Shown here piece by piece: positions 46,111-64,000 of a stretch of 64,000 nucleotides of DNA (positions are counted from its first letter, which is position 1; the number at the start of each line of letters is the position of its first letter). Where the stretch lies: assembly GCF_017308985.1 (NCBI RefSeq), contig NZ_JADWPE010000002.1:62001-126000 (forward strand). Reading direction: 5' to 3'. This DNA is from Lysobacter changpingensis (lineage in GTDB: Bacteria; Pseudomonadota; Gammaproteobacteria; Xanthomonadales; Xanthomonadaceae). The translations under genes were made by a program, and so were the position numbers. The notes under the pieces are model-generated. The model was not told the DNA's origin. It was given only the letters and a program-made list of their open reading frames with translations, and ran no database searches.

Positions 46111-46749
46111 ATGCGCACGTTCAGTACCCGCACGATCGGCACCTTCGTCGCCGTCCTCGCCACGATGCTCTTCCTTTCCGCCTGCGCGTCTTCGGGCGGC
46201 AGCGCCAACGCACCGCCGCCGGCGGAATCGGAAAACCTGGTCGACGCCTACCAGATCGGCATCGACGACATCGTGCAGGTGTCGGTGTGGCGCAATCCGG
46301 AGCTGGGCATCACCGTTCCGGTGCGTCCGGACGGCAGGATTTCCGTCCCGCTGGTCGGCGACGTCGCCGCAGGCGGACGCACGCCGAACGCGGTGGCGAA
46401 GGAAATCCAGGAACGCCTCGCCGTGTTCGTGCGCGATCCGCAGGTCGCGGTGATCCTCACCGACCTTCGCAGCCACGAATACCTCTCGCGCGTGCGCGTC
46501 ACCGGCGCGGTGCGCCAGCCGATCTCCATTCCCTTCCGCCAGGGCATGACCGTGCTCGACGCCGTGCTCGCCGCCGGCGGCGTCACCGAGTTCGCCGCGC
46601 CCGCGAAGTCCGACCTGTATCGCAAAACCGGCGACAGCACGCGCAGCTATGCGGTGCGGCTGGACCACATCCTGGAAGACGGCGACCTGACGACCAACTT
46701 CAAGGTCGCGCCGGGCGATGTCATCACCGTTCCGGAACGCACGCTGTGA
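46111..46749 (+). CDS. Wza-like polysaccharide export lipoprotein
   Basis: A 212-residue exported lipoprotein; the lipobox LSAC gives lipidated Cys near residue 25. It contains the Poly_export domain (YQIGIDDIVQVSVWRNPELG, PVRPDGRISVPLVGDV) and one SLBB domain (RVTGAVRQPISIPFRQGMTVLDAVLAAGG), ending at PGDVITVPERTL. It would form the outer-membrane export channel for the polymer. It is shorter than E. coli Wza (379 residues) and resembles the export proteins of exosortase-associated EPS clusters. AAGGGGG precedes the ATG, and the stop overlaps a GTG of the next gene. Confidence 0.93.
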   Translation: MRTFSTRTIGTFVAVLATMLFLSACASSGGSANAPPPAESENLVDAYQIGIDDIVQVSVWRNPELGITVPVRPDGRISVPLVGDVAAGGRTPNAVAKEIQERLAVFVRDPQVAVILTDLRSHEYLSRVRVTGAVRQPISIPFRQGMTVLDAVLAAGGVTEFAAPAKSDLYRKTGDSTRSYAVRLDHILEDGDLTTNFKVAPGDVITVPERTL

Positions 46750-46754
46750 ACGGC

Positions 46755-48359
46755 ATGTCGACGGAACTCACGGTCCCGGAGACCCGTCCCTCCGCGATCG
46801 CGGCGATGGTGCCGGTGGCGTTCGAGGAATGGCGCCGCCGCCCGGTGCTGCTGGCGACGGTGTTCACGCTGATCGCACTGGGCGCGCTCGTCTTCGGGAT
46901 GCTGCTGCCGAAGAAATACAACTCGCAGACGACGATCCTGGTCGAGGAAAGCAACATCATCAAGCCGCTGATGGAAGGCCGCGCCGTGCCGACCAGCGTG
47001 GTGAGCCGCGCGGCGATCACGCGCGAGGTCGCCTTCAGTCGCAGGACGATGGACGAGATCCTCAAGACCGGCGGCTGGATGAAATCCAATCCGACGCCGG
47101 TGCAGCAGGACCAGCTGATCGAGGTGATCACCGGCCGCACGATCATCTCCAACCCGCGCGACAACCTGATCCGCGTGTCGTACACGGACACCGACCCGGC
47201 GCGCGCGCACGCCGTCACCAAGCGCTTCGCCGAACTGATCATCGAGCAGAGCCTGGCGACCAAGGAACGCGAGAGCCGCGACGCGTACGACTTCATCGAC
47301 TCGCAGGTGCGCGCCTACCACAAGAAGCTCACCGACGCCGAATCCAAGCTGGAGGCGTATCGCAAGTCCAATCCGGACGCGCGCCCGGGCATCGACGGCG
47401 ACGTGAACTCGCGCATCGCCGAGTTGCGCCGCATGGTCGACACCTCGCGCATGGAGCTGATGGACCTGGAATCGCAGGGCAACGCGCTGCAGGGCCAGCT
47501 CAACGGCGAGAACGAGGTGAACGTGGTGCAGACGCGCTCGGGCCAGCTGCTCGCGCGCATGGCCGAGCTGGAATCCGAGCACGACCGCCTGCTGATGAAC
47601 TACACCGAGCAGCATCCGGACGTGGTCCGCGTGGCGCACCAGATCCGCGACCTGGAAGAGGAAGTGCGCCGCGAGGACGCGCGCCAGGCCGCGCGCAAGA
47701 GCGCACCGCCCTCGCCCGGCGCGGCGAACGACACCAGCACCGGCGGCACCGCGCTGGGCGGCGTGGCTTCGTTCAATCCGCTGTACGGCGAACTCAAGAG
47801 CAAGCTCGCCGAGAACCGCCGCCAGGCCGCCGCGGTGACCTCGCGCATCAACACCAGCCAGGCGCTGCTCGACCAGGAACTGGCCCGCAGCCGCCACATC
47901 GCCGCATCGGAAAGCACGATGGCCGAGCTGTCGCGCGATTACGAAGTCAACCGCGATCTCTACCAGGACCTGCTCAAGCGCCGCGAGAACGCGCGCGTGT
48001 CGATGAGCCTGGATTCCGAGCAGCGCGGCCTGAGTTTCCGCATCCAGGAACCGGCGACGTATCCGCTGCGCGGCGTCGGCCTGCGCCTGGTGCACGTGGC
48101 GGGCGCCGGCCTCGGCGCCGCCGCGCTGGCGCCGCTGGTGCTGCTGTTCGGCTTCGTGCGGCTCGATCCGCGCGTGCGTTCGCCCTACCAGGTCGAAACC
48201 GCATCGGCGTTGCCGGTGCTCGGCACGGTGCCGCGTTACCGCACCGTGACCTCGCGCCGCATGGCGATGCGCCGCTTCGTGATCGCCGCGATGATTTTCC
48301 TGGTGGTGCCGCTCGTTTACGGCCTGACCCTCATCCTCAAGATGGTGACCCTGCAATGA
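46755..48359 (+). CDS. GNVR/Wzz-domain chain-length determinant protein
   Basis: A 534-residue inner-membrane polysaccharide co-polymerase. It has an N-terminal Wzz region with a membrane segment at about residues 30-50, a long periplasmic coiled-coil part (about 150-430), a GNVR-type region around YEVNRDLYQDLLKRRENARVSM, and two C-terminal membrane segments (about 455-475 and 510-530). It sets chain length and works with the neighbouring kinase-like protein. I chose the ATG at 46755; a GTG at 46746, overlapping the previous stop as GTGA, is equally plausible. Its stop overlaps the next ATG. Confidence 0.92.
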   Translation: MSTELTVPETRPSAIAAMVPVAFEEWRRRPVLLATVFTLIALGALVFGMLLPKKYNSQTTILVEESNIIKPLMEGRAVPTSVVSRAAITREVAFSRRTMDEILKTGGWMKSNPTPVQQDQLIEVITGRTIISNPRDNLIRVSYTDTDPARAHAVTKRFAELIIEQSLATKERESRDAYDFIDSQVRAYHKKLTDAESKLEAYRKSNPDARPGIDGDVNSRIAELRRMVDTSRMELMDLESQGNALQGQLNGENEVNVVQTRSGQLLARMAELESEHDRLLMNYTEQHPDVVRVAHQIRDLEEEVRREDARQAARKSAPPSPGAANDTSTGGTALGGVASFNPLYGELKSKLAENRRQAAAVTSRINTSQALLDQELARSRHIAASESTMAELSRDYEVNRDLYQDLLKRRENARVSMSLDSEQRGLSFRIQEPATYPLRGVGLRLVHVAGAGLGAAALAPLVLLFGFVRLDPRVRSPYQVETASALPVLGTVPRYRTVTSRRMAMRRFVIAAMIFLVVPLVYGLTLILKMVTLQ

Positions 48360-49138
48360 GCGCCGCTCCTTCCGAAGCCGTACTGGACACCACGGACGAC
48401 CGCGCCACCGGAAGCGCCGCGACCGATCGCGAGGACGCGCCCGAACGCGACCTGCGTCCGACCATCCCGCGCAGCGCCGGCGTTGCCGCGCTCACGCCCT
48501 CGCAGCTGGAGGACCGCGCGATCATCCATCGCGGCGGCGTGTCGAGGCCGGAGGTCGATGCGTTCCGCGAACTGCGCACGCGCCTGCTTTCCGCGGTCGA
48601 AGGCAGCTTCGTCGCGCTGGTGGCGCCGGTGAGCAGCGGCAGCGGCGGCAGTTTCGTAGCGCGCAACCTCGCCACGGCGATGGCCTTCGACGAAACCAGG
48701 AGCGCGCTGCTGGTCGACTGCGACCTGCGCCATCCCTCGCAGCAGCGCACGATGAAGATCGACGCCGACAACGGCGGGCTCGTGGAATACCTCGAGAACG
48801 CCGATGCGGATCTGTCCGACGTGATCTACGAAACCGGCGTCACCGGGCTTCGCCTGATTCCCGCCGGCACCACGCGCGAGATCGGCGCGGAGTACTTCTC
48901 GTCCGTGCGCATGCGGCTTCTGCTGGATTCGATCCGCAGCCGGCACCCGAACTGCTACGTGTTCCTCGACGGGCCGCCGGTGCGCGGCACGCCGGACGCA
49001 CGCATCCTGGCCGACATCGCCGACGTGGTGATCCTCGTCGCCGGATACGGGCGCGATACGGCGTCGACGATCGCGCAGGCCGCGGCGAACTTCGATCCGG
49101 CCAAGTTCGCCGGCGTGGTGTTCAACGAAGGCGTTTGA
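48356..49138 (+). CDS. CpsD/BY-kinase-like protein with a degenerate P-loop
   Basis: A 260-residue protein of the MinD/bacterial tyrosine kinase fold encoded after the chain-length protein. It keeps the Walker A'-like ALLVDCDLRHPS (about 117-128) and Walker B-like YVFLDGPPVRGTPDARILAD (from residue 201). However, the P-loop position reads APVSSGSGGSF (90-100), with no Lys or Thr/Ser-Lys pair. The usual C-terminal tyrosine cluster is also absent; the chain ends in FNEGV. It may therefore be a structural partner of the co-polymerase rather than an active kinase. A 40-residue acidic N-terminal tail precedes the domain. Confidence 0.85.
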   Translation: MSAAPSEAVLDTTDDRATGSAATDREDAPERDLRPTIPRSAGVAALTPSQLEDRAIIHRGGVSRPEVDAFRELRTRLLSAVEGSFVALVAPVSSGSGGSFVARNLATAMAFDETRSALLVDCDLRHPSQQRTMKIDADNGGLVEYLENADADLSDVIYETGVTGLRLIPAGTTREIGAEYFSSVRMRLLLDSIRSRHPNCYVFLDGPPVRGTPDARILADIADVVILVAGYGRDTASTIAQAAANFDPAKFAGVVFNEGV

Positions 49139-49202
49139 ACGACGCAAGCTTCGGCACCCGCGGCTTCAGGACCGTCCGGCCACAAGACATCAGGGAGATC
49201 GA

Positions 49203-50564
49203 ATGGCCAGCGCAAGAATCCAACCGGTCGCAGGGCCATCCCCGCGATCCGCGCTCTGCATCGGCCTGCTGGCCGCGCTTCCCGCGATGCTGCCGCACGC
49301 CGCGCGCGCGGCGCAGATCAATTACTCCATCGGCGGACGCGTCGAGCACAGCGACAACATCGCGCTGACGCAGACCAATCCGCAGGAGGAAAGCACGCTC
49401 GCCACCGACGTCGCCTTCGACCTGACCCAGACCGGCCGCAACACCACGCTGGCCGCGAGCGGCGGCGTGGAATACCTGTACTACACCGGCGACCTGTTCG
49501 ACGACGACGTGCGCGCCTCGCTGGTGGGCACGTTCAACTGGAACACCTGGCAGGACCGGATGAAGGTCATCATCGAGGACTACGCGAACTACGAGCCGAT
49601 CGACGTGCTCGCCGCCGATGCGCCCAACAACCAGCAGCAGGTGAACGTGTTCGTCGCCGGCACGCAGTTCAACCTGCGCCCGGGCGATGCCACCCGCGTG
49701 CGCGTGGATCTTCGCTACAACAACTACTGGGCCGAGGAAAGCGACGATTTCAACGGCGATCGCTACAACGCCGCCTTCACCCTGTGGCAGGAACCCGGCC
49801 CGACCACGCGCATCGCCTTCACCGTGGAAGGCAGCGAAGTGCAGTACGACCAGGTGAGCCTGGACACGCTCGGCGCCGATTACCGCCGCCTCGACAGCTA
49901 CCTCACCTGGAACCGCAACCTCGCCAACATCGACCTGGAAGTGCGCGCGGGTTACTCGTGGGTCGAACTCACCGACTACAACACCAAGGACGACGCGCCG
50001 CTGTTCCGCACCGTGCTGACCTGGCGGGCGACCTCACGCAGCACGCTCGACATGGGCGTGTACTACCAGTTCTCCGACGCCGCGCAGGAACTGATGACCA
50101 ACGCCGTCGATCCGACCGCCAGTCCAACGGCGCCCGGCGGCGCGCCGACGCCCGATCCGACCGACGTCACCATCGGCCCGGACCTGTACCGCCAGCGCCG
50201 CGTCGACGTGGGCTACCGCTACAACGGCGAACGCCTCGACGCCAGCATCCGGCCGTACTACGAGGACAACGACTACATCGACCCCACCGCCGAGAGCGAA
50301 GGCAGCTACGGCATCGGCGTGGGGCTGAGCTGGGCGATCACGCCGTCGCTGTACCTCAACGGTTCGGTGTCGGCGGGCTTCCGCAGTTTCGACAGCTTCG
50401 ACCGCGACGACGACGACTTCTCCGTTTACATCGGCATGACGAAGATCCTCACCCGCCACTGGAGCCTGGGCTTCGACCTGCGCCACCAGGAACGCGACAG
50501 CAACGCCAACGAAGCGAGCTATGACGAGAATGCCGCCATCTTCAGCGTTCGCTATACCCGCTGA
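49203..50564 (+). CDS. Outer-membrane beta-barrel protein (EPS/exosortase-associated type)
   Basis: A 453-residue protein with a long signal peptide cleaved near HAARAAQ (residue about 37), then alternating amphipathic strands throughout. There are many Tyr, Asp and Asn residues and a closing strand NAAIFSVRYTR. It starts INYSIGGRVEHSDNIALTQT, like the TIGR03016-type and BBP2-type outer-membrane proteins found in exosortase-associated EPS clusters. It probably helps polymer export or secretion across the outer membrane. A Pro-rich loop (TASPTAPGGAPTPDPTDV) lies near residue 310. The stop overlaps the next gene by about 44 bases. Confidence 0.85.
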   Translation: MASARIQPVAGPSPRSALCIGLLAALPAMLPHAARAAQINYSIGGRVEHSDNIALTQTNPQEESTLATDVAFDLTQTGRNTTLAASGGVEYLYYTGDLFDDDVRASLVGTFNWNTWQDRMKVIIEDYANYEPIDVLAADAPNNQQQVNVFVAGTQFNLRPGDATRVRVDLRYNNYWAEESDDFNGDRYNAAFTLWQEPGPTTRIAFTVEGSEVQYDQVSLDTLGADYRRLDSYLTWNRNLANIDLEVRAGYSWVELTDYNTKDDAPLFRTVLTWRATSRSTLDMGVYYQFSDAAQELMTNAVDPTASPTAPGGAPTPDPTDVTIGPDLYRQRRVDVGYRYNGERLDASIRPYYEDNDYIDPTAESEGSYGIGVGLSWAITPSLYLNGSVSAGFRSFDSFDRDDDDFSVYIGMTKILTRHWSLGFDLRHQERDSNANEASYDENAAIFSVRYTR

Positions 50565-51735
50565 GCCGCGCGCCCTCGCGCGCGTCGCCGACGAGCGCAT
50601 CGCGCTGCTGCTGGTGACCGACACGCCGGTGCTCGCGCCCGGCGGCAGCGAACGGTTCCTGCAGAACCTCGCCACGCGCCTGCCCGCGGATGCGTACCGC
50701 ATCACGCTGGTGCAACTGCACGAACAGTCGATGCCGGGCAACCACGGCCGCCAGCTGTTGAAGCAACCGCACCTGCGCATGCTCTCGCTGCCGGTGCATG
50801 CGGTGTACGACCGCACCGGCCTGCGCGCGTGGCGCGAACTGTCGGCGATGCTGCGCCGCGAGCGTTTCGACGTCGTGCAGTCGCAGCACGAGAAGGCCGA
50901 CGTGCTCAACGCGCTGCTTCCGCGCCGGCCCGGGACGGTGCACATCTCCAACCGGCGCGACATGGGCTTCAAGAAGAGCCCGAAGCTGCAGCAGGCGTTC
51001 CGCTGGCTCAATCCGCGCTTCGATACGGTGGTGGCGCCGGCGCGGCAGATCCTGTCCGGGCTCGCGCAATGCGAGAAGCTCGACGCGTTGCGCATGACGT
51101 GGATCCCCAACGGCGTGGACACGCGCCACTACGCGCCGGCGCCGTTGCAGCGCCGGCTCGACACGCGCGCGGTGCTCGGGCTGGACGCGGACGCCATCGT
51201 GTTCGGCTGCGTCGCGCGCATGCAGCCGGTGAAGCGCCATGTCGACCTGCTCGACGCCTTCGCCAGCGTGCGACGCAACGTGCCGCAGGCGCGCCTGCTG
51301 CTGGTCGGCGACGGCCCGGACCTGCCGATGATCCGCGCCCGCATCGCCGGGCAGGGCCTGGTCGAGGACGTCCACCTGCTGAGCTTCCGCGACGACGTCG
51401 CCGATCTGCTGCCGGCGATGGACGCGCTGGTGCTGTGCTCCTCCAGCGAGGGCATGTCCAACGCGATCCTCGAGGCGATGGCATGCGGCCTGCCGGTCGT
51501 CGCGACCGCGGTCGGCGGAAACCTGCACCTGGTGCAGCACGAACAGACCGGGTTGCTGGTGCCGCCGCTGGATCCGATCTCGCTGGCCGCGGCGCTGCAA
51601 TGGCTGGCGCAATCGCCGCATGCGCGCCGGCGCATGGGGCTGGCCGCGCGCACGCGCATCGAGCGCGAGTTCTCGCTCGACGCGATGGTGCTCGCGTTCG
51701 ACCGCCTGTATCGCCGCCTGCTTGGACGCGATTGA
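50521..51735 (+). CDS. Glycosyltransferase family 4 protein (first)
   Basis: A 404-residue GT-B enzyme. The acceptor half starts ALLLVTDTPVLAPGGSERFL, and the donor half carries IPNGVDTRHYAP, ARMQPVKRHVDLLDAF and the EX7E-type EGMSNAILEAMACGLPVVATAVGG. The latter is typical of Glycos_transf_1 (GT4) enzymes adding sugars to lipid-linked intermediates. The sugar is not predictable. The ATG at 50521 (or 50533) lies within the end of the barrel gene, so translation is likely coupled. It is the first of three GT4 genes in the operon. Confidence 0.91.
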   Translation: MTRMPPSSAFAIPAEPRALARVADERIALLLVTDTPVLAPGGSERFLQNLATRLPADAYRITLVQLHEQSMPGNHGRQLLKQPHLRMLSLPVHAVYDRTGLRAWRELSAMLRRERFDVVQSQHEKADVLNALLPRRPGTVHISNRRDMGFKKSPKLQQAFRWLNPRFDTVVAPARQILSGLAQCEKLDALRMTWIPNGVDTRHYAPAPLQRRLDTRAVLGLDADAIVFGCVARMQPVKRHVDLLDAFASVRRNVPQARLLLVGDGPDLPMIRARIAGQGLVEDVHLLSFRDDVADLLPAMDALVLCSSSEGMSNAILEAMACGLPVVATAVGGNLHLVQHEQTGLLVPPLDPISLAAALQWLAQSPHARRRMGLAARTRIEREFSLDAMVLAFDRLYRRLLGRD

Positions 51736-51750
51736 GGCCGCGAGGACGCC

Positions 51751-52920
51751 ATGAACGAATCGCGCCCCTTCGTCCTGCAGGTCCGCTCGAGCGCCGGCTT
51801 GTATGGCGCCGATCGCGTGGTGCTCGCGCTGAATCGCGCGCTCGATCGCGGCGGCGCACGCAGCCGCCTTTTGAGCATCAACAACTACCGCATGCACGAA
51901 CAGGCGCTGCACGACGTCGCCTCCGCGACCGGCCAGGACACGGTCCTGCTGCCCTGCCGTGGCCGCGTCGATGCGGCCACCATCGGCGCGATCGCCGCGC
52001 AGATCGGCGCCACGCGCGACCGCGCCGGCACGCCGCCGGTCGTGCACGTGCACGACTACAAGAGCGCCTTCTACGCCTGGCTCGCCACGCGCCGCGAACA
52101 TCACCTCGGAAAGCCCGCGCCGCTGGTCGCCACGCTGCACGGCTGGGTCGAATCCTCCGCGTCGCTGCGCCTGTACACGCAGCTGGAACTCGCGCTGCTG
52201 CGCCGCTTCGATGCGCTGGTGGTCGTGGCCGGCGAGCAGGTCGACCGCCTCGCGCGTGCCGGCGTTCCGCGCGCGCGCATCCGTCACATCGACAACGGCA
52301 TCGATTGCCCGGTGCGCGATGAAGCCGGCGCCGCGATGCTGCGCGCGCAACTGGGCCTTTCGCCGGGCTCGCGCGTGTTCTCCGCCGTCGCGCGGCTGTC
52401 GAGCGAGAAGAACATCGCGATGCTGCTGCGCGCCTTCGTTCCGGTCGCCGCGCGCCATGCGGACGCCGTGCTGCTGGTCGTCGGCGATGGCCCGCTGCGC
52501 GAGGAACTCGAAACGCTGGCGACGCAGCTCGGCATCACGCAGCGCGTCCGCTTCCTCGGCATGCGCCACGACATGCCGGCCGTCCACACGCTCACCGATC
52601 ACCTCGTGCTGCCCTCGCTCACCGAAGGCATGCCGCTGGTGGTGCTGGAAGCGATGGCCTGCGAAGTTCCGGTGATCGCCAGCGCCGTCGGCGACATCCC
52701 GCGCCTGCTCGCACGCAGCGCGCATGGGCGCACCGTTCCGCCGGGCGATGTGGTCGCCCTCGAGATGGCGCTGGACGACGCGATGAGCGCACCCCGTGTC
52801 CGCGACACCGTGGCGCGCGATCACGTGCGCGAACGCCACAGCGCGCAGGCGATGGCGGCCGAGTACCTGGCGCTGTACCGCGGACTGCTGGAGAAACGCC
52901 ATGCGCGGCGCGCATCCTGA
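51751..52920 (+). CDS. Glycosyltransferase family 4 protein (second)
   Basis: A 389-residue GT-B enzyme. The N-terminal half contains SSAGLYGADRVVLALNRAL and the acceptor-side LVATLHGWVESS. The donor-side half contains IDNGIDCPVRDE, ARLSSEKNIAMLLRAF and LTEGMPLVVLEAMACEVPVIASAVGDIP, the GT4 signature. It follows the first GT4 by 15 bases and overlaps the next gene by 20 bases. Its sugar donor is unknown. Confidence 0.91.
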   Translation: MNESRPFVLQVRSSAGLYGADRVVLALNRALDRGGARSRLLSINNYRMHEQALHDVASATGQDTVLLPCRGRVDAATIGAIAAQIGATRDRAGTPPVVHVHDYKSAFYAWLATRREHHLGKPAPLVATLHGWVESSASLRLYTQLELALLRRFDALVVVAGEQVDRLARAGVPRARIRHIDNGIDCPVRDEAGAAMLRAQLGLSPGSRVFSAVARLSSEKNIAMLLRAFVPVAARHADAVLLVVGDGPLREELETLATQLGITQRVRFLGMRHDMPAVHTLTDHLVLPSLTEGMPLVVLEAMACEVPVIASAVGDIPRLLARSAHGRTVPPGDVVALEMALDDAMSAPRVRDTVARDHVRERHSAQAMAAEYLALYRGLLEKRHARRAS

Positions 52921-54262
52921 CGCTGGTGGATCGCGATTCCCGCTCGCGGCGCGTGCGTTGCGCGGCGCGATGCCGGCCGGCACGCGCACGCGCCTGCCCG
53001 TGCTTCCGGGCGCACCGAGTGCCGCGCGGGCGAGCGCCCGGCCGGCGACCGCACGCGCGCCGCGCAACTGGCCGCTGTTCGTGTTCCTGATCCTGCTGCC
53101 GCTGCAGAACATCACCGCCGGCTATCTGCCGAACATCGGCGGTGGGTTGAACTTCCTCAACCTCATGTTCCTGGTCTCGCTGTTCACCGCGATGGCGCAG
53201 GGCGGGAAGCTCGCGCCGAACGAGCCGGTGAACACGTGGACGGCGATCTACGCGATCTACATGACGCTGTCGATGCTCATCGGTTTCCATTTCGTCAACG
53301 AGCCGACCAACCACTTCAACCAGCTCAAGGACCACATGGTCGGGCTGTTCGTGGTGTACGTGGTGCAGATGAGCGTGCGCGACTGGAACGGCGTGCGCAT
53401 GGTGGTCCTGGCCACGCTGCTGCCGCTGCCGTACATCGCCAAGGTGGTGTGGAACCAGCACCGCAGCGTCGCCAGCACGCACTACACCGACGACCTGCGC
53501 ATCAGCGGCACCTTCGCGCTGCTCGGCGCCAACGAGTTCGCCGCGTTCTGCGTGACCGTGGCGGTGGTGCTGTTCGCGCTGCTGCTCGCGTGCCGGCTGT
53601 CGCGCAAGTGGAAGCTGCTGCTGCTCGGCGGCATCGGCTGCATGATCGTCGGCGTGCTGTACGCCTACTCGCGCACGGCCTACATCAGCCTGATCATGGG
53701 CATGGTGGTGGTGATCCTGGTCTGGCGCGGACGGATGAAGCTGATCCTGCCGCTGTGCCTGGCGGTCGTGGTGCTGCCGGCGGTGCTTCCCAAGTCGGTG
53801 GTCGAACGTTTCGACAGCACCACGGTGGAGGAAGGCAAGCGCGACGAAAGCACCGAGCTGCGCATCGAGTACTGGAAGATCGCGTGGTCGAACTTCGTAC
53901 GCAATCCGGTGGTCGGCACCGGCTACCACACCTTCCACCATCGCGAGATCAATCCCTACGGCCGCGACACCCACAACCTCTACATCCGCATGCTCAGCGA
54001 AGGCGGCGTGCTCGGCGCGATCTCGCTGCTGGGCATCCTGCTGGCGGTGCTGAGGACCTCGTTGCGCGAGGTCGCTCAGGCGCGCACCGGCACCTGGCGC
54101 TACGCGCTGGCCCTGGGAATGATGGGCGCCTGGGTGTCGATGATCATCAGCAACCTGTTCGGCGACCGTTTCACGTATTACCCGGTGATCGCCTACTTCT
54201 GGGCCTATGTGGCCCTGGTCGTGAAGGCGCGCCACCTGCCGCCGGAGGATTCCACGCGATGA
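52901..54262 (+). CDS. O-antigen ligase/polymerase-like membrane protein
   Basis: A 453-residue polytopic protein with about ten hydrophobic segments after a basic, poorly conserved N-terminal 50 residues. It has the Wzy_C/O-antigen ligase features: a large periplasmic loop with VVGTGYHTFHHREINPYGRD followed by THNLYIRMLSEGGVLG, which carries the conserved His and Arg residues. It could polymerise repeat units or transfer them to an acceptor. The ATG at 52901 gives the longest plausible N-terminus, and the stop overlaps the deacetylase start. Confidence 0.86.
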   Translation: MRGAHPDAGGSRFPLAARALRGAMPAGTRTRLPVLPGAPSAARASARPATARAPRNWPLFVFLILLPLQNITAGYLPNIGGGLNFLNLMFLVSLFTAMAQGGKLAPNEPVNTWTAIYAIYMTLSMLIGFHFVNEPTNHFNQLKDHMVGLFVVYVVQMSVRDWNGVRMVVLATLLPLPYIAKVVWNQHRSVASTHYTDDLRISGTFALLGANEFAAFCVTVAVVLFALLLACRLSRKWKLLLLGGIGCMIVGVLYAYSRTAYISLIMGMVVVILVWRGRMKLILPLCLAVVVLPAVLPKSVVERFDSTTVEEGKRDESTELRIEYWKIAWSNFVRNPVVGTGYHTFHHREINPYGRDTHNLYIRMLSEGGVLGAISLLGILLAVLRTSLREVAQARTGTWRYALALGMMGAWVSMIISNLFGDRFTYYPVIAYFWAYVALVVKARHLPPEDSTR

Positions 54263-56086: not shown

Positions 56087-57231
56087 ACGCCGCGCTGCTG
56101 TTCTGGTCGTGCATCGCGCTGGTCGCCTGGGCGTACGCGGGCTATCCGCTGTTCACGGCGTTGCTTGCGCGACGCTATGGCGACGCGCCGCTGCACGATC
56201 CGCGCGGCGGCGACGATGACGAATGCGAACCGATGACCGTCGTCATCGCCGCCTTCGACGAGGAAGCGCGCGTCGCCGCGCGCATCCGCGACATCCTCGA
56301 CCAGGACTACCCCGCCGACAGGCTGCAGGTACTGGCGATCAGCGACGGCAGCCGCGACGGCACCGCGCGCGCCGCCGCATCGCTCGGCGACGATCGCGTG
56401 CGCGTGCTCGATCTGCCGCACAACGTCGGCAAGGCGGCGGCGCTCACCCTGGGCATGCGCCAGGTCGACACGCCGCTGGTCGCCTTCACCGATGCACGGC
56501 AACGCTTCGCACCGGGCGCACTGCGCGCGTTGGCGGCGCCGTTCGCCGATCCGTCCATCGGCGCGGTGAGCGGCGAGCTGGTGATCGCCGCCGCCGATCA
56601 CGGCACCGGCGAAGGCGTCGGACTGTACTGGCGCATGGAAAAACGCCTGCGTTCGGACGAAGCGAAGCTGGGGTGGCTGCATGGCGTCAGCGGCTCGATC
56701 CACGCGATGCGCCGCACGTTGTTCGTGCCGATTCCCGCGAACACCGTGCTCGACGACATGTGGATGCCGCTGCAGGTGCTGCGCTCGGGCCATCGCGTGT
56801 GGATGGCGCGCGAGGCGCTCGCGTTCGACCGGGCCAGCCACAGCGTGGACGAGGAATTCCAGCGCAAGCTGCGCACGCTCGCGGGCAACTGGCAGCTGAT
56901 CGCGCGCCTGCCGTGGCTGCTGGACCCGTTCGCGAACCCGGCGTTCTTCGCGTGGTTCTCGCACAAGTTCCTGCGCCTGCTGGTGCCGTGGGCGTTGCTG
57001 GTCGCGCTGGCGGCGTCCGCGTTCGCGGAAGGCGCCCTGCATCGCATCGCCTTCGGCCTCCAATTGCTCGCCTACGCGGGCGCGCTGGGTGGACTGGTGT
57101 TGCCGCGCGTGGCCGCGCGATTGCCGTTGCTGCCGGCGGCGAGCAGTTTCGTGATGCTCAACTTCGCCGCGCTGTTGTCGCTTCCCGCGTCGCTGGCGAT
57201 GGACCCGGCGCGGCTGTGGAAGAAACACTGA
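56083..57231 (+). CDS. Glycosyltransferase family 2 membrane protein
   Basis: A 382-residue processive-type GT2. A hydrophobic N-terminal anchor (residues 1-25) is followed by PMTVVIAAFDEEARVAARIR, the nucleotide-binding ISDGSRDGT, NVGKAAALTLGM, VAFTDARQRFAP (DxR variant of DxD), and DDMWMPLQV and QRKLRTLAGNWQ (QxxRW-like). Two or three C-terminal membrane segments follow. It probably extends the lipid-linked glycan at the inner membrane. The GTG at 56083 overlaps the previous stop, and there is no better ATG. Confidence 0.88.
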   Translation: MNAALLFWSCIALVAWAYAGYPLFTALLARRYGDAPLHDPRGGDDDECEPMTVVIAAFDEEARVAARIRDILDQDYPADRLQVLAISDGSRDGTARAAASLGDDRVRVLDLPHNVGKAAALTLGMRQVDTPLVAFTDARQRFAPGALRALAAPFADPSIGAVSGELVIAAADHGTGEGVGLYWRMEKRLRSDEAKLGWLHGVSGSIHAMRRTLFVPIPANTVLDDMWMPLQVLRSGHRVWMAREALAFDRASHSVDEEFQRKLRTLAGNWQLIARLPWLLDPFANPAFFAWFSHKFLRLLVPWALLVALAASAFAEGALHRIAFGLQLLAYAGALGGLVLPRVAARLPLLPAASSFVMLNFAALLSLPASLAMDPARLWKKH

Positions 57232-57240: not shown

Positions 57241-58488
57241 ATGGCCCGCATCCTTGCCGTGACCAGCCGCCTTCCCTTCCCGCCGCGCGAAGGTCACCAG
57301 CTGCGCGCGTGGCACGTGCTGCGCGCGCTCGCATCGAAGCACGAGGTGACGCTGCTGAGCTTCCAGCGCAAGGACGATCTCCCCGACGAAGCCGCGACGC
57401 TGCACGCGGCGATGGCGCGCGTGGAAACCTTCCGCATTCCCGGCGAACGCTCGCGTGGCGCGCTCGCGCGCGCGGTGCTGCGCGGCACGCTCACGCCGAC
57501 GCCTTTCCTCGTCGCCAAGTACGACTCGCCCGCGCTGCGCGCGCGGCTGAGCGCTCTCGCGCGCGATGCCGATCTGGTGCACTTCGACATGCTGCCGCTG
57601 ATCGCGCACGCGGACTGCGTGCCCGACGGCGTGCCGATCGCGCTGAACGCGCACAACGTCGAGCATCGCCTGCTCGCCGCGCGCGCCGGGATCGAAACAC
57701 GACCGTGGGCGCGGCGCTTCCTTTCCGGCCAGGTCGACAGGCTGCAGGCGTTCGAGCGTCGCGCCTGCGAGCGCGCCGACGCGGTGCTGGCGTGCTCGCA
57801 GGTGGATGCGCAGGGGCTGCGCGAACTCGTGCCGGACTGCAACGTGCACGTCGTCGCCAATGGCGTCGATCTGGAAACGAACCGCCCCGCCGCGCACGCG
57901 CCGGATGCGGAACGGCTGGTGTTCGTCGGCCAGATGGGCTGGTTTCCGAATCGCGATGGCGTGGACTGGTTCCTGCGCGAGGTGTTCCCGCGCATCCTCG
58001 CGCGCCGCCCGACGGCGCGCTTCGAACTGGTCGGCAAGGCCGAAGGCTTCGATGTTCCCGCCAACGTGCGCGCGAACGTCGACCTCGCCGGTTTCGTCGA
58101 CGACCTGCGTCCGCACGTGCACGACGCGTCGGTCTACGTCGTCCCGTTGCGCGCGGGCAGCGGCACGCGGCTGAAGGTGCTCGAGGCGATGGCGCTGGGC
58201 AAGGCGATCGTCACCACTACCATCGGCAGCGAAGGCATCGCGCTTCGCCATGGCCGCAGCGCGTTGTATGCGGACGATGCGGAGGCCTTCGCCGAATCCG
58301 TGTTGTCGCTGCTCCAGTCCCCGGAGCGCACGACCGCACTCGGCATCCAGGCGCGTCGACTGGCGGAAGACGAGTACGGCTGGGATGCGATCGGCACGCG
58401 GCTGCTGCGTGCGTACGAGCCGTTGCTGGGCGGGAACCTGCGGCCGGTGCGCGCGGCTGCGGCGACGCTGGGGGCGGTGGAGGCCTAG
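57241..58488 (+). CDS. Glycosyltransferase family 4 protein (third; exosortase-locus type)
   Basis: A 415-residue GT-B enzyme. It opens ILAVTSRLPFPPREGHQLRA and has LNAHNVEHRLLA, ACSQVDAQGLRE, VANGVDLETNRP, FVGQMGWFPNRDGVDWFLRE and AGSGTRLKVLEAMALGKAIV, a close pattern match to the TIGR03087-type glycosyltransferases found in exosortase-associated EPS clusters. That comparison is from memory of the family, not from a search. It is the last gene of the plus-strand EPS operon and is followed by a REP pair. Confidence 0.9.
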   Translation: MARILAVTSRLPFPPREGHQLRAWHVLRALASKHEVTLLSFQRKDDLPDEAATLHAAMARVETFRIPGERSRGALARAVLRGTLTPTPFLVAKYDSPALRARLSALARDADLVHFDMLPLIAHADCVPDGVPIALNAHNVEHRLLAARAGIETRPWARRFLSGQVDRLQAFERRACERADAVLACSQVDAQGLRELVPDCNVHVVANGVDLETNRPAAHAPDAERLVFVGQMGWFPNRDGVDWFLREVFPRILARRPTARFELVGKAEGFDVPANVRANVDLAGFVDDLRPHVHDASVYVVPLRAGSGTRLKVLEAMALGKAIVTTTIGSEGIALRHGRSALYADDAEAFAESVLSLLQSPERTTALGIQARRLAEDEYGWDAIGTRLLRAYEPLLGGNLRPVRAAAATLGAVEA

Positions 58489-58521
58489 CGCAACCCCGCG
58501 TTCGCCATTTCTCCTGGCCGT

Positions 58522-58598
58522 TGTAGCCCGGGTAAGCGAAGCGCACCCGGGGCGCGGCCACTTCTCCAACCCGGTGCGCTTCGCTTGCCCGGGCTACA
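58522..58598. repeat. REP-like inverted pair
   Basis: TGTAGCCCGGGTAAGCGAAG at 58522 and a reverse copy ending GCTTGCCCGGGCTACAG near 58598 lie between convergent genes. It may serve as a terminator for the EPS operon. Confidence 0.88.
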
Positions 58599-58612
58599 GA
58601 AGCCAACCACGA

Positions 58613-59368
58613 CTATCGGGCCGACAAACCAGGCCCACGCCCCCGCGCCCGCCATCGATAACTCACCACCCCCATCACCTCATACAGCGCCACCTGCGTC
58701 TTCTGCATCGCCGACAGCTGCGGCAGGAAGTACCCGACGCTTCCCATCGGCACATACGCCGAATCGCTCGCCACCATGCACGGCACGAAGCCCGCCGCGC
58801 GGAACGCCACCGCCGCGCGCGGCAGGTGCGTGGCCGAACTCACCACGCGCACGCGCGCCGGCAACGTGCCGCGCAACGCCATCGCGCTTTCCCAGGTGGT
58901 GGTCGATTGCGCTTCCTCGCGCAGCCACTGCGCCGGCACGCCCCAGTCCTGCGCGAGCCGCGCGAGCACCGCCGCCTCGCTGATCGCGAACGGCCCGCCG
59001 CCGGCGATGGTCATCGTCACCGGCGCGCCACGGCGCCACAGTTCGACGCCGCCCCGCAGCCGACGCCAGCTCGACGGCGTCAGCGCGATGTAATCGTCGT
59101 GCGCGCGTGGTTCGTCCTGCAGGCCACCGGCGAGCACCACGATCGGCGCCTGCGCATCCCGCGCATCGCAGCGCGCCTCGCGGGGAACGCCGCCTTCGAC
59201 CATGCGGATCAGCGTATTCGCGCCCAGCGGCGTGCACAGCAGCACGATCGCGATGCCCGCGATCGCCAGCACCACGCGCCACCACGCGCGGGCCCGCGCC
59301 CACGTCAGCCACGTGGCCGCCATCCACAGCAGGGCCCAGGTCATCGGCGAGAGCAGGAGGGAGTGCAT
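58613..59368 (-). CDS. DUF218 (YdcF/SanA-like) membrane protein
   Basis: A 251-residue protein with two N-terminal hydrophobic segments (about 3-20 and 28-48) and a cytoplasmic or periplasmic DUF218 domain. This contains APIVVLAGG, YIALTPSSWRRLRGGVELWRRG, the TTWESAMALRG stretch and VRVVSSATHLPRA with its conserved His. Such proteins (SanA, ElyC) affect envelope integrity and lipid-carrier use; the enzymatic activity is not proved. Start choice is uncertain: ATG at 59368 is used, and 59398 or 59419 are possible. Confidence 0.83.
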   Translation of the reverse strand: MHSLLLSPMTWALLWMAATWLTWARARAWWRVVLAIAGIAIVLLCTPLGANTLIRMVEGGVPREARCDARDAQAPIVVLAGGLQDEPRAHDDYIALTPSSWRRLRGGVELWRRGAPVTMTIAGGGPFAISEAAVLARLAQDWGVPAQWLREEAQSTTTWESAMALRGTLPARVRVVSSATHLPRAAVAFRAAGFVPCMVASDSAYVPMGSVGYFLPQLSAMQKTQVALYEVMGVVSYRWRARGRGPGLSAR

Positions 59369-59485
59369 GGCCGGCGCAGTCTTGCATGAACGGGCCATGG
59401 GCGCGAGGCGGCCGAACATGCGCGCGCAACGCGTTCTCCACGGTAACGGGCCCTGCCCGATCCCTCCCCCGCGCCGGAATCCGAC

Positions 59486-61330
59486 ATGGCCATCCTGCGG
59501 CTTCGTCCCCTCGCCTTCGCCCTGCTGCCCGCGTGCGCGCTAGCCGCGATGGCGATGCCCGTGCCCGCGTTCGCCGACACGTACTACGTCCGCACCGACG
59601 GCGGCGACGACGAACAGTGCAACGGTCGGGCCGACGCGCCGTATCCCGGCAGCGGCAGCGGCGTGGACTGCGCATGGCGTCATCCGAACTACGCGTTGCC
59701 GACCAGCGATCGCCCGCGCATCGACGGCGGCGACACGCTGATCATCGGCCCGGGCGAATACATGATCGGCTGGGAATCGCCAGGCCTTTCGACGAAAAGC
59801 ACGCGCTGCGATTCGAGCGCGCCCTACGACTGCTATCCGGCCGCGCCGCCGAGCGGCACGCCGCAGGCGCGCACGCGCATCCTCGGCGCGGGTTTCGACA
59901 GCGGCTGCAAGGCGCCACCGAAACTGTGGGGCACCAACCGCGTGGACCTCGTCCTCAACCTGCAGGACGCCGACAACGTCGAAGTCGGATGCCTCGAGAT
60001 CACCGACAAGAGCGATTGCGTCGAATTCCACGCGAACGACGCCGTGCGTTGCGAGCGCGACTCGCCGCCGTTCGGGCAATGGGCGTCGATCGGCATCGGC
60101 GCCAAGCGTTCGAAGAACGTGTGGCTGCACGATCTGGACATCCACGGCCTGTCGGGCCGCGGCATCATGGCCGGCGGCCTGCGCGACTGGACGATCGAAC
60201 GCGTGCGCATCCACGCCAACGGCTGGGCCGGCTGGGACGGCGACGTGGGCGAAGGCGAGAGTTCCAACGAAGGCGACATCGTGTTCCGCAACGTGGAAAT
60301 CGCCTGGAACGGCTGCGCCGAGCGCTGGCAGACCGGCGAACCGTTCGCGTGCTGGGCGCAGGAGGAAGGCGGCTACGGCGACGGCCTCGGCACCGGCCGG
60401 ACCAACGGCCACTGGCTGGTGGAAGATTCGCGCATCCACCACAACACCTCCGACGGACTCGATCTGCTGTACACCGACGAATCGAAGACCGCCACCGTCG
60501 TCGTGCGCCGCGTGTACGCCGCGGCGAACGCGGGCAACCAGGTGAAGACCGCGGGGAACGCGCTGGTCGAGAACTCGGTGATCGTCGGCCAGTGCGCGTA
60601 CTTCCACGGGAAATACGACATGAGCGACGGCGACATGTGCCGCGCGTACGGCAATGCGTTGTCGGTCGGCGTCGGTCCGAAACAAACCGCGACCGTGCGC
60701 CACAACACCATCACCGGCGAAGGCGACTGTCTGATCCTCACCGCCGGGGGCAACGCGAGCTCGCGCGTGGAAATCCAGAACAATGCGCTGATCGGCCAGA
60801 AGGACGTCACCGCCAGCGACGGCGACATGCGCAGCTGCGCGCATTACGCCGACAAGAGCACGGCGGTGGTGAGCTTCGAAGGCAACGCGTTCTGGAACGT
60901 CAAGGACGACATGTGCCCGGCCGGCAACGTGTGCGGGCGCGAGCCGAAGCTGGCGAGCATCGAGCTTTCGACGTTCGATCCGATGCCGCTCGCGGGCAGC
61001 CCGCTGATCGACCGCGCGACGCAGCAGACCAGCGTGACCTCGGATTTCCTGCGCCAGTCGCGGCCGAAGGGCTCGGCGGCGGACATCGGGGCGGTGGAGT
61101 TCCAGGACGGCCAGGCGGGCGCGCCGACGGTGGGCGCGCCGGCCGCGGGTGCGCCTGCCGCGCGGGAACCTGGCTCGCGTGCGGAAGATGCTGCGATCGA
61201 CGACACGACCGGCGCAGCGGCGCCGAAGCAGTCGTCGACGTGGATGATCGGCACGCTGGCGGCGGCTTCGTTGTTGACCGCCGGCGTGGCGGCGGCGCTG
61301 CGGAAGATGCGGGGGCGGAAGACGGCGTGA
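59486..61330 (+). CDS. Secreted right-handed parallel beta-helix protein with C-terminal membrane anchor
   Basis: A 614-residue protein. A signal peptide ends near residue 30 (AFAD), followed by many short beta-helix coils with repeated patterns such as KNVWLHDLDIHG, RDWTIERVRIHANG and GDIVFRNVEIAWNG, and several cysteine pairs. The PbH1-like region reaches about residue 520. A Pro/Ala-rich linker (about 545-580) is followed by a hydrophobic helix (about 584-604) and a basic end RKMRGRKTA. It may be a polysaccharide lyase or glycan-binding protein held at the cell surface. No PEP motif precedes the helix. Confidence 0.85.
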   Translation: MAILRLRPLAFALLPACALAAMAMPVPAFADTYYVRTDGGDDEQCNGRADAPYPGSGSGVDCAWRHPNYALPTSDRPRIDGGDTLIIGPGEYMIGWESPGLSTKSTRCDSSAPYDCYPAAPPSGTPQARTRILGAGFDSGCKAPPKLWGTNRVDLVLNLQDADNVEVGCLEITDKSDCVEFHANDAVRCERDSPPFGQWASIGIGAKRSKNVWLHDLDIHGLSGRGIMAGGLRDWTIERVRIHANGWAGWDGDVGEGESSNEGDIVFRNVEIAWNGCAERWQTGEPFACWAQEEGGYGDGLGTGRTNGHWLVEDSRIHHNTSDGLDLLYTDESKTATVVVRRVYAAANAGNQVKTAGNALVENSVIVGQCAYFHGKYDMSDGDMCRAYGNALSVGVGPKQTATVRHNTITGEGDCLILTAGGNASSRVEIQNNALIGQKDVTASDGDMRSCAHYADKSTAVVSFEGNAFWNVKDDMCPAGNVCGREPKLASIELSTFDPMPLAGSPLIDRATQQTSVTSDFLRQSRPKGSAADIGAVEFQDGQAGAPTVGAPAAGAPAAREPGSRAEDAAIDDTTGAAAPKQSSTWMIGTLAAASLLTAGVAAALRKMRGRKTA

Positions 61331-61380
61331 CGAGGGCATGCCTGCGCCGATGACCTGCACGCTCATCGGAGTGGCGCTCC

Positions 61381-61478
61381 TGTAGCCCGGGTAAGCTCTT
61401 GTAGCCCGGGTAAGCGCAGCGCACCCGGGGAGCGCGGGGCGCCTCCGACCCGGGTGCGCTTCGCTTACCCGGGCTACA
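61381..61478. repeat. REP-like cluster: truncated, full and inverted copies
   Basis: A truncated copy TGTAGCCCGGGTAAGC at 61381-61396, a full copy at 61400-61430 and a reverse copy ending at 61478. This makes it the most complex REP site in the window. Confidence 0.88.
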
Positions 61479-61546
61479 ACAGCAGCAACAACGGCATAAC
61501 GCCGACACCAACAACAAACAGCAACAGCAACGACAACTCCAAGCCG

Positions 61547-63043
61547 CTACCCCGCCACCCCCTCCCCCACCCGCCGCTGCACCGCGCGCAGCTTCGGATG
61601 CAGCATCCCGCGCAGCCGGGCGTCCAGTGTCAGCAGCACCAGCAGATACGGCCCGCCGATCAGCATTCCGCCGACCAGCATCCGCTGCCAGCCGGGGCGC
61701 AGCGACAGCTGCAGCGTGAGCCATTCACCGGCGAGCGCCGCCAACGCCGCGACCGCCACCGTTCCCAACGTGCGTCGATCCGGGAACTGGCGCAGCGCGG
61801 GATCCACGAGCAGGCATGCCGCCACGCTCGACACCGTCGAACTCACCAGGGTCGCGTACGCCGCGCCCATCACGCCGTACGCGGGAATCCACAGCAGGTT
61901 GAGCAGCGAGTTCACCGCCACCGCCAGGCCCATCAACGCCAGCACCGTCTTCGTGCGCCGTTCCAGCACCAGGCCGAAGCCGCACACCAGCACCACCGGC
62001 AGCACCGCGTTCATCGCGCCCATCCACTCGAAAACCGGGCCCGATCGCGACTTGTCCGCGCCGCTCAGCGCGATGATGAGGTCCGTGCCCAGGCACCACA
62101 GCAACATCGCGACGCCGATCGCGGCATAGGTCATCGGCACGAGCATCGTTCGCTTGAGCGCGCGCACGGCCGCCGCGCCGTCGGTGGTGAACACGCGGTT
62201 GGCCGCCGGCGTGAACGACTCGAACACGGTGAGGTTCATGAACATGTGCACCTGCATTGCCAGCGCCGCGCCGACGCTGTAGATGCCCACCACCGCGAAA
62301 TCGCCGGACAGGCTCTTGAGCATGATGCGATCGATCGACACCAGCGCGACGGCGAGGATCTCCGTCGCCACCAGCGGCATGCCGTACGCGAACGACTGGC
62401 GAAGCTCCGCCGGATCCATCGAGCGTCGCGCGAAATGCAGGTGCCGCCGCGCCCACGCGAGGTAGAACACCATGCCGATCACCACCGCCAGCAGCTTTCC
62501 GCCGTACGCCGCCGCGGCGGTGTGCTGCACGGCGAGCACCGCGCCGAGCATCAGCGCCAGCTGCAGCCACCGCCACGCCACGCGCGTGAGCATCACCGTG
62601 CGCGACTGCTCGGTCACGCGCAGCACGGTTTCCACCAGGCTGGAATAGACCAGCATCGGCGTCATCACCAGCGCCATCCAGAACACCGGCGCATGCCCCT
62701 CGCCGGTGACGTAGCCGTGCACGATCACGATCGCGCCGACCAACGCCCACAACGCCAGCGAGCCGATCATCGGCAGGTAGAACAGGTTGGTGGCGAACGA
62801 ACGCATGCGCGCGTCGTCACCGCCGTGCGGATAGAAGCGCTGGATCGAATGCTGCGCGCCGAGCTTGGCAACGGCCACCGCCATCAGCACCCAGGTTTCG
62901 TAGTAGCCCAGGATGCCGTACTGCGTGTTGTCGAGCAGCCGCGTGAGCAGCGGGAAGGACACCAGCCCCGCCATCATCACCAACAGGTTGGCGGTGGAAT
63001 AGCGCAGGTAATGCCGGGCCAGGCCGGGCGTGGACGCGGTCAT
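61547..63043 (-). CDS. Wzx-type oligosaccharide flippase
   Basis: A 498-residue polytopic protein with about 12-14 membrane segments, starting YLRYSTANLLVMMAGLVSFP followed by LLTRLLDNTQYGILGYYETW, the standard MOP/MATE-like polysaccharide transporter start. Later features include GMPLVATEILAVALVSIDRI, and no water-soluble domain is present. It would flip the lipid-linked repeat unit from cytoplasm to periplasm, where the ligase/polymerase acts. It is four bases downstream of the hydrolase gene on the minus strand. Confidence 0.91.
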   Translation of the reverse strand: MTASTPGLARHYLRYSTANLLVMMAGLVSFPLLTRLLDNTQYGILGYYETWVLMAVAVAKLGAQHSIQRFYPHGGDDARMRSFATNLFYLPMIGSLALWALVGAIVIVHGYVTGEGHAPVFWMALVMTPMLVYSSLVETVLRVTEQSRTVMLTRVAWRWLQLALMLGAVLAVQHTAAAAYGGKLLAVVIGMVFYLAWARRHLHFARRSMDPAELRQSFAYGMPLVATEILAVALVSIDRIMLKSLSGDFAVVGIYSVGAALAMQVHMFMNLTVFESFTPAANRVFTTDGAAAVRALKRTMLVPMTYAAIGVAMLLWCLGTDLIIALSGADKSRSGPVFEWMGAMNAVLPVVLVCGFGLVLERRTKTVLALMGLAVAVNSLLNLLWIPAYGVMGAAYATLVSSTVSSVAACLLVDPALRQFPDRRTLGTVAVAALAALAGEWLTLQLSLRPGWQRMLVGGMLIGGPYLLVLLTLDARLRGMLHPKLRAVQRRVGEGVAG

Positions 63044-63047
63044 CGGG

Positions 63048-63953
63048 TCAGGGCGTCCCCGCGTCGCCGAACTGTTCGCGCATCCAGGCCGCGATGCGCG
63101 CGAGCAGCACGCGGCGATGCTTGCGCAGGTAGAAGGTGTGGTCGTACTCGCGCCAGAATTCCAGGCTCACCTGTTTCTCCTGCGCGGCGCGACCGAGGCT
63201 CGCGGGCAACTGCGCGCGATGGTTGAAGTAGTGATAGGCGCCGCCGGTGAAGACGAACAGCAGCCGCGTGTCGCGCGCGACCATGTCGGCGACCATGCGC
63301 TGCGCCTGCGCGCGCGCGGGCCAGTCGCGGAAATCCGACAGCGAAGGGCGTGGATTGCGGCGCGACATGAGGAAGCGCAGCACCTTGCCGAAATCCAGCA
63401 GCCGCGGCAGTGCATGCCGCACCCAGAAGCCGGGCGTGGGATACGCGACGCCGTCGAGCAGGATCGCGCCGGCCACGCGCGGATCGACCGCGCCCACGTG
63501 GAAGGCATCGTCCGCACCCGAGCACAGGCCGCACAGCACGAAGCGTTCGGCGCCCGCCTCCTGTGCGAGCAGGCGCATCGCCGCGTCGGTTTCGCGGTGG
63601 CGACGTTCGCCGGACGCCTTGCCCGGCAGCTCGCTGTCGCCCAGCCCCGACTGATCGAAGCGCAGAACCGCGAAGCCCTGCGCCGCGAGCATGCGCGCGA
63701 TGTCGACGTGTGCGCGGAACGGGCCGGTGTGGCGCGTGAGGCCGGCGTTGAGCAGCAACACGCCGATCTTCGATGCGACGCCGTCCGGGCGCGTGATCAC
63801 GCCGACGAGGCCATCGCCGAAGCGATGCGCCGTTTCGATGCAGGCGTCCTGCGCGGGTCCAGGCGTGCGTTCGCGCGTGGGCGCGGGCGCGGATTCCAGG
63901 CGCGCTTCGGGCACGCGCGCGTCGAGTCGTTTCTGGTTGAATTGCAGGTTCAC
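63048..63953 (-). CDS. Alpha/beta hydrolase, exosortase-locus type
   Basis: About 301 residues. The core has VLLLNAGLTRHTGPFRAHVD, FAVLRFDQSGLGDSELPGKA and the nucleophile-region FVLCGLCSGADDAFHVGA (Ser in LCSGAD), with the catalytic His likely in EYDHTFYLRKH near the end. It looks like the hydrolases found beside exosortase A genes; this is my family recognition, not a search result. The GTG at 63953 overlaps the stop of the gene to its right; an alternative GTG at 63956 adds one residue. Confidence 0.78.
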   Translation of the reverse strand: MNLQFNQKRLDARVPEARLESAPAPTRERTPGPAQDACIETAHRFGDGLVGVITRPDGVASKIGVLLLNAGLTRHTGPFRAHVDIARMLAAQGFAVLRFDQSGLGDSELPGKASGERRHRETDAAMRLLAQEAGAERFVLCGLCSGADDAFHVGAVDPRVAGAILLDGVAYPTPGFWVRHALPRLLDFGKVLRFLMSRRNPRPSLSDFRDWPARAQAQRMVADMVARDTRLLFVFTGGAYHYFNHRAQLPASLGRAAQEKQVSLEFWREYDHTFYLRKHRRVLLARIAAWMREQFGDAGTP

Positions 63954-64000
63954 CACGGCACCTGTCCGGTCATGCGCTGCGCGAGCTGGGCCACGGCGCG
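63950..64000 (-). CDS. C-terminal tail of an unidentified gene (5' truncated by window edge)
   Basis: The minus-strand frame open to the right edge ends RAVAQLAQRMTGQVPW then TGA at 63950-63952, overlapping the next gene's GTG. Only 16 codons are visible, so the product cannot be named. In exosortase-type loci, a second hydrolase or an acyl-CoA ligase is often found in this position. Confidence 0.55.
   Translation of the reverse strand, partial: RAVAQLAQRMTGQVPW

Follow-up and report, generated by a model that had tools for sequence, protein, structure and literature searches.

In the XrtA/PEP-CTERM (EpsH) system, the available part of the published account gives 1 to 65 PEP-CTERM domains per positive genome, with a median of 8, and EpsH homologues in all PEP-CTERM-positive genomes except one (PMC1569441). 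A separate small kinase-like protein beside a GNVR (PCP-2B) protein is found in WzeX/WzeS of Myxococcus xanthus, according to the accessible text of PMC7310880. Herein, we analyzed an exopolysaccharide (EPS) locus of Lysobacter changpingensis that resembles the first of these systems. It lies in a window of 64,000 nucleotides (C2:62001-126000), taken from a nine-contig genome of 4.06 Mb with a completeness of 100, and a second operon, which encodes a nonribosomal peptide synthetase/polyketide synthase (NRPS/PKS) line and two hydrolases, adjoins it. In XrtA loci, the related XrtA-associated hydrolases 1 and 2 (TIGR03100 and TIGR03101) are paired with an acyl-CoA ligase, a carrier protein, and a decarboxylase. 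In microcystin McyE and mycosubtilin MycA, a module of ketosynthase (KS), acyltransferase (AT), carrier (T), and aminotransferase domains is followed by condensation (C), adenylation (A), and carrier domains, from which a beta-amino acid is expected.

A preliminary description, made from the window alone, had likened the locus to XrtA/PEP-CTERM EPS clusters, having recognized in order a Wza-like protein, a GNVR protein, a kinase-like protein, an outer-membrane barrel, glycosyltransferases, a ligase, and a TIGR03087-like glycosyltransferase, together with a flippase and a hydrolase. Gene calls with a simple script, combined with NCBIfam models (curated cut-offs in bits), recovered every one of these genes in the same order between 46111 and 63956. 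The resemblance was also borne out. The Wza-like outer-membrane export protein (46111..46749, + strand; TIGR03027, 198 bits, cut-off 180), the GNVR/Wzz-type chain-length co-polymerase (46755..48359, +; TIGR03007, 335 bits, cut-off 279), and, only just, the outer-membrane beta-barrel (49203..50564, +; TIGR03016, 93.3 bits, cut-off 90.85) passed the XrtA-type cut-offs, as did the priming transferase EpsB to the right of the window (TIGR03013, 537 bits, cut-off 393). For the export proteins of the window, the XrtA-type models outscored the other models listed, so that stronger matches to ordinary Wzy loci were not found. Similar glycosyltransferases, deacetylases, and a ligase are further features shared with the system of PMC1569441 as far as its available text describes it. 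However, neither an exosortase nor a credible PEP-CTERM protein was found in the genome, the chain-length protein belongs to another clade, the Walker-A lysine and the tyrosine tail are both missing from the kinase homologue, and the matches to TIGR03087, TIGR03088, and TIGR03097 are all below cut-off.

We consider it rather probable that this is a Wzx/Wzy-type EPS system of a sister branch without XrtA, joined to an NRPS/PKS line in which the two hydrolases, here called Hydr1 and Hydr2, would serve as a release or transfer device. Of the components of a Wzx/Wzy pathway, the priming transferase, the chain-length co-polymerase, and Wza are over cut-off, and a flippase and a Wzy-like protein are matched only below cut-off.

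Hydr1 (63048..63956, −; TIGR03100-like, 73 bits, cut-off 168) is the edge hydrolase of the window and the final gene of the second operon, most of which lies beyond the window. The other genes are Hydr2 (63950..64759, −, with the window ending at 64000; TIGR03101-like, 61 bits, cut-off 203), an NRPS (64756-70875; C-A-T-C-T-TE-T, where TE is a thioesterase), and a PKS/NRPS hybrid (70872-78125; A-T-KS-AT-T-class III aminotransferase), the domains of the last two being assigned with Pfam. TIGR03100 and TIGR03101 are the best-matching families for Hydr1 and Hydr2 and share with them the alpha/beta-hydrolase fold, but the two proteins score far under the cut-offs and, unlike those families, are tied to NRPS/PKS lines.

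Both hydrolases were present in 90 of the 91 stretches examined, which hold 84 distinct Hydr1 sequences because six places were fetched twice. All 91 Hydr1 proteins have a cysteine in the nucleophile elbow (G-x-C-S-G/A-A; GICSAAD in G005) and a late histidine, and all 90 Hydr2 proteins have an arginine at the nucleophile-corresponding place, although this unanimity is weakened by the fact that 79 of the loci (L090-L168) were fetched by patterns containing the Cys or His motif. Eleven stretches obtained after a family-profile search, of which six are the places fetched twice, carry no such bias and agree on the motifs. AlphaFold (AF2) models of the window's Hydr1 and of Hydr2 from L091 (L. soli) reached predicted local distance difference test scores of 87.8 and 88.8, respectively. 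In the Hydr1 model, Cys145 lies between strand 138-144 and helix 146-157, Asp168 follows strand 161-167, and His273 follows strand 263-268; from this order of strands and motifs, Cys145/His273/Asp168 may form a catalytic triad. In the Hydr2 model, the arginine is residue 120, after strand 113-119. Fold searches returned esterases and lipases as similar solved structures, which reflects the common alpha/beta-hydrolase fold only.

The position of Hydr2 relative to the assembly line suggests where it would act. In six relatives (L104, L146, L153, L125, L163, and L115), the last NRPS protein is a separate one in which Pfam detected no thioesterase, and four of the six have a carrier domain at the C-terminus; L104 and L163 have two carrier stretches, one of which was placed. 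Of the 79 loci, 11 have a match to a TE domain like that of the window, which in five cases lies immediately in front of Hydr2. A single open frame joins Hydr2 to the preceding NRPS domains in 10 loci; all 10 frames contain a Pfam carrier domain, which directly precedes Hydr2 in L110, L116, L123, L131, and L138, and the stretch between the NRPS and the fused Hydr2 has a carrier motif in 10/10 (two of these loci, L102 and L103, have identical Hydr1). Hydr2 would thus sit at the last carrier domain, in place of a thioesterase. A point against this placement is that the window's own NRPS retains an internal thioesterase, with a trailing carrier domain behind it.

The condensation, adenylation, carrier, ketosynthase, and acyltransferase domains of the window's line are over the Pfam cut-offs; Pfam gave the best stretch per domain only, and where C and T domains are repeated, their order was partly read from the sequence by hand. 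The module order is like that of McyE and MycA. Unlike those hybrids, the line is linked to EPS genes, and in the relatives scanned the last NRPS protein has no thioesterase and either lies ahead of the Arg/Cys hydrolase pair or is fused to it. Such a line (A-T-KS-AT-T-aminotransferase, then C-A-T-C-T-TE-T) should give a short peptide that contains a beta-amino acid and, judged by a specificity code, glycine. The specificity residues of the NRPS adenylation domain, DILQLGVVWK, were located by hand with the GrsA numbering, and we take this type of code to be that of glycine. It is nearly constant: 71 of the 75 rows printed, out of 124 aligned and non-independent A domains, vary only at the sixth to eighth places or by L/M. 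The starter A domain, DILAIGGIMK by alignment, allows no substrate assignment. Its code differs between lineages, so the first residue of the peptide is probably species-dependent.

The linkage between this operon and the EPS genes was then examined across the family. Genes resembling TIGR03100, at E up to 1e-10 and all below cut-off, occurred in 23 of 119 Lysobacteraceae genomes. All 23 carry the chain-length gene, compared with 45/119 overall (Fisher 1.9e-12, ignoring relatedness). Hydr1 and the chain-length gene were within 30 kb on one contig in 16 of the 23 genomes, or 17 if a one-contig genome is circular; in the remaining genomes they were on separate contigs (five) or 733 kb apart (one). 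An NRPS/PKS like that of the window flanks Hydr1 in 20/23. In 67 of the 79 named loci, the stretch retrieved contains C and A domains together, or KS/AT domains; the other 12 include short contigs. The named relatives of the edge hydrolase belong to Lysobacter species and other Lysobacteraceae, and by their record titles the Hydr1 loci come from Lysobacteraceae, Dokdonella, Granulosicoccaceae, Burkholderiales, Gemmatimonadota, Acidobacteria, Myxococcales, and others. As read from these sequences, a conserved NRPS/PKS-Hydr2-Hydr1 operon is joined to the EPS locus in many Lysobacteraceae. No description of NRPS genes in exosortase-type EPS loci was found in the open-licence PMC literature, mostly judged from listings. 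Of the 79 named Hydr1 loci, 50 entered an exosortase search, which covered 49 genomes; longer exosortase matches were present in 7 of the 49. Eight of the matches in these seven genomes were checked for linkage, and none of the eight overlaps a Hydr1 stretch.

Several observations weigh against the proposal of an EPS system joined to an NRPS/PKS line. The NRPS-Hydr module is away from the chain-length gene in G013 (733 kb, same contig) and G089 (other contig). Three of the 23 genomes have no such NRPS/PKS at Hydr1, G094 showing only acyl-ligase-sized matches and G022 and G067 none. At four more distant loci, a scan of 10 neighboring proteins found one clear glycan gene. That the operon is also found away from EPS genes weighs in particular on the polysaccharide as acceptor. 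The NRPS/PKS may instead make a free secondary metabolite and merely adjoin the EPS genes, with Hydr1 and Hydr2 as release or editing enzymes that have no role in the polysaccharide. We regard this as a serious contender, though with somewhat less than an even chance. It would account for the Longimicrobiales, Granulosicoccaceae, and Piscinibacter loci, in which eight scanned neighbors included no clear glycan gene, as well as for the distant module of G013 and the variable starter code. It sits poorly with the presence of the chain-length gene in every Hydr1 genome and with a distance of less than 30 kb in at least 16 of the 23, and also with the relationship of Hydr1 and Hydr2 to families named for EPS loci.

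Under the reading that we favor, in which the hydrolase pair is the release or transfer device of the NRPS/PKS line, Hydr1 would take the thioester-bound acyl group on its cysteine and hand the product on, either to water or to an acceptor molecule. The acceptor may be a sugar of this polysaccharide, which is the least certain step and is speculative. In its fullest form, the proposal is that a widespread exosortase-free EPS branch with a dead bacterial tyrosine kinase (BY-kinase) homologue makes, in Lysobacteraceae, a polymer decorated by a glycine-containing beta-amino-acyl NRPS/PKS peptide, by means of a two-part acyltransferase in which a catalytically empty Arg protein takes the position of the thioesterase and a Cys protein is its partner. 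Taken as a whole, this combination is doubtful, and we put it forward tentatively.

We further asked how the chain-length protein of the window relates to those of XrtA loci. Full-length TIGR03007 proteins were present in 45 of the 119 family genomes, 38 over cut-off and 7 just below. In a class survey of 274 genomes, a locus was counted as XrtA-linked when a TIGR03109 match lay within 20 kb on the same contig; contig ends can hide linkage, and the count omits six weak or second TIGR03109 rows, none of which shares a contig with any of the chain-length genes listed. Among the 55 loci scoring at least 425 bits, 38 were linked, 13 had a match on another contig only, one had a match farther off, and three had none. 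When the score was 279-425 bits (25 loci), one was linked, eight had a match elsewhere in the genome, and 16 had none. Below the TIGR03007 cut-off, one of seven loci was linked.

An unrooted tree was built from 63 chain-length proteins, taken from 43 loci (one from the family) and from 20 of the 43 family neighborhoods. It separated into one clade of 23 rows and another of 40, with support of 100/100. All 12 XrtA-linked rows fell in the 23-row clade, whereas all 21 Lysobacteraceae rows, including that of the window, fell in the 40-row clade, and none of the other 19 rows of the latter was XrtA-linked. Two results count against so clean a division. Seven of these 19 other-family genomes have a TIGR03109 match elsewhere, one of them over cut-off, and three of the 55 high-scoring loci are in genomes without any TIGR03109 match. 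The absence of XrtA is therefore a property of the loci of this branch and does not extend to all of its genomes. Judged from these sequences, the locus belongs to an old sister branch of the XrtA/PEP-CTERM EPS systems, made up of loci without XrtA.

The kinase homologue beside the chain-length gene follows the same division. Both the Walker-A lysine and a C-terminal tyrosine cluster are needed for BY-kinase activity. The window's stand-alone homologue (48356..49138, +; TIGR03018, 150 bits, below the cut-off of 231) has SSGSGGS, with the Walker-A lysine replaced. By alignment, the lysine is kept in 19/19 loci of the 23-row clade, the four rows without a detected kinase (G210, G175, G405, and G253) being left out, and is missing in 19/19 other-family loci of the 40-row clade and in 45/45 Lysobacteraceae, 21 of which are in the tree (the reference row, which is the window genome again, is uncounted). 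At least three tyrosines occur in the last 20 residues of 19/19 first-clade kinases versus 0/64 of the homologues without the lysine, all 64 of which have no tyrosine there. The many cases probably go back to a single evolutionary event, so that their number tells less than it seems to. From this comparison of motifs, the homologue is probably a pseudokinase and would act as a scaffold for the chain-length protein rather than as an autophosphorylating switch. In comparison with WzeX/WzeS, with which the window shares the separate small kinase-like protein beside a GNVR protein, the window's homologue lacks the nucleotide-binding lysine and the tyrosine cluster, a comparison that excludes the own motifs of the Myxococcus kinases. 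Nothing on pseudokinases was found in the available parts of PMC7310880 and PMC7484181.

A recent loss of the exosortase in this lineage, from what was otherwise an ordinary XrtA system, would agree with export proteins that pass the XrtA-family cut-offs. We consider this very improbable because the chain-length branch spans many families, its loci show no XrtA closer than 20 kb, and the kinase has changed along with it. A separate clade together with a diverged kinase indicates a related system and not a recent local loss. Moreover, with two sister branches and a root position that is not fixed, the locus may never have had an exosortase. Thus, where the preliminary description had offered a related system that had lost its exosortase, the relationship and the absence of the exosortase stand, and the loss is only one of two possible histories.

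That absence was seen at the scale of the whole genome. With PF09721 (0 matches) and TIGR03109, no exosortase was found anywhere in the genome, right flank included, so that the absence first noticed within the window holds throughout. The idea that the gene lay just past the right edge was ruled out by gene calls over 34 kb rightward, profile searches with selected genes, and genome scans. In the 119 sampled Lysobacteraceae genomes, XrtA (TIGR03109) was never over cut-off, and a weak match was obtained in one. PF09721 matched in 11 of the 119, in part-length form, aligned within positions 92-251 of the 254-position profile; the detection of such short exosortase-like proteins shows that the model is sensitive in this family. 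They sit apart from the EPS locus (L004-L011 among the places), being either on contigs that do not carry the chain-length gene (G022, G033, G067, and G100) or in genomes in which no full-length chain-length gene was found. A partnership of these proteins with the locus is unsupported, as they cover part of the profile only.

A genome search for PEP-CTERM proteins, as suggested together with the first gene list, found no credible one with TIGR02595. The single weak match of the window genome (E 0.02) was rejected because it appears to be the last membrane helix of a transporter-like protein. Across the family, TIGR02595 (E up to 0.1) matched in 17/119 genomes, 16 of them with a single match of E > 0.006 and one, G112, with two better matches. 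The secretion ATPase model TIGR03015 has one match somewhere in the window genome (E 2.7e-75); it was dropped as a locus marker since it matches 175 of the 274 class genomes and is uninformative. Finally, a very divergent exosortase or other sorting enzyme missed by the models, to which the sorting-signal-like C-terminus of the beta-helix protein described below, a membrane segment with a basic tail, might point, is the least likely explanation of all, given that PF09721 picks up even short exosortase-like proteins in 11/119 family genomes and that the tail is confined to the window genome and two close relatives among the complete homologues listed.

The sequence thus contains an EPS locus that has no exosortase and is in a separate branch, with a kinase homologue without its active parts. 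Downstream of the barrel are two GT4 glycosyltransferases (50521..51735, +, TIGR03088-like, 217 bits, cut-off 409; and 51751..52920, +, TIGR03088, 148 bits, below cut-off), followed by an O-antigen ligase/Wzy-like membrane protein (52901..54262, +; TIGR03097-like, 76 bits, cut-off 188). Next are a polysaccharide deacetylase-like protein (54259..55299, +) with weak PgaB/HfsH matches, whose order is kept in close relatives, and a polysaccharide deacetylase (55322..56086, +) with PdaA/NodB-type matches below cut-off. A GT2 glycosyltransferase (56083..57231, +; MftF/PgaC-type matches below cut-off) and a TIGR03087-like GT4 glycosyltransferase (57241..58488, +; 218 bits, cut-off 317) complete this run. 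On the opposite strand are a YdcF/ElyC-like membrane protein (58613..59419, −; ElyC, 60 bits, cut-off 205) and the Wzx-type flippase (61547..63043, −; HfsF-like, 60 bits, cut-off 700).

Between these two genes, a beta-helix-type protein with a choice-of-anchor Q domain (59486..61330, +; NF041518 over cut-off) has an N-terminal signal-like stretch and a C-terminal membrane segment with a basic tail, which the other homologues with complete ends lack. The tail was rejected as a conserved sorting signal, being found only in the window genome and two close relatives among 23 matching frames, at least two of the other homologues being cut off by contig or stretch ends. To the right of the window are a DnaJ-like gene (78386-79267), a phosphopantetheinyl-transferase-like gene (80933-81793, below NCBIfam cut-offs), and a TviB-type UDP-sugar dehydrogenase. 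The DnaJ-like gene recurs near EPS genes in 28 of 43 family neighborhoods.

The curated models name this branch an "XrtA system" although its loci are without XrtA. Because the cut-offs of TIGR03007, TIGR03027, TIGR03016, and TIGR03013 admit the XrtA-less branch, exosortase-free genomes can be labeled as having the XrtA system. If the kinase homologue is dead, the control of polymerization must work without tyrosine phosphorylation, and the branch would uncouple polymer export from kinase cycling. The hydrolase pair would offer a concrete, testable function for two families that are named only by their neighborhood, and the possibility of peptide-decorated exopolysaccharides is raised. If the decoration proposal is true, XrtA-associated hydrolases 1 and 2 would be misnamed, and their substrates in XrtA loci would likewise be carrier-bound acyl groups.

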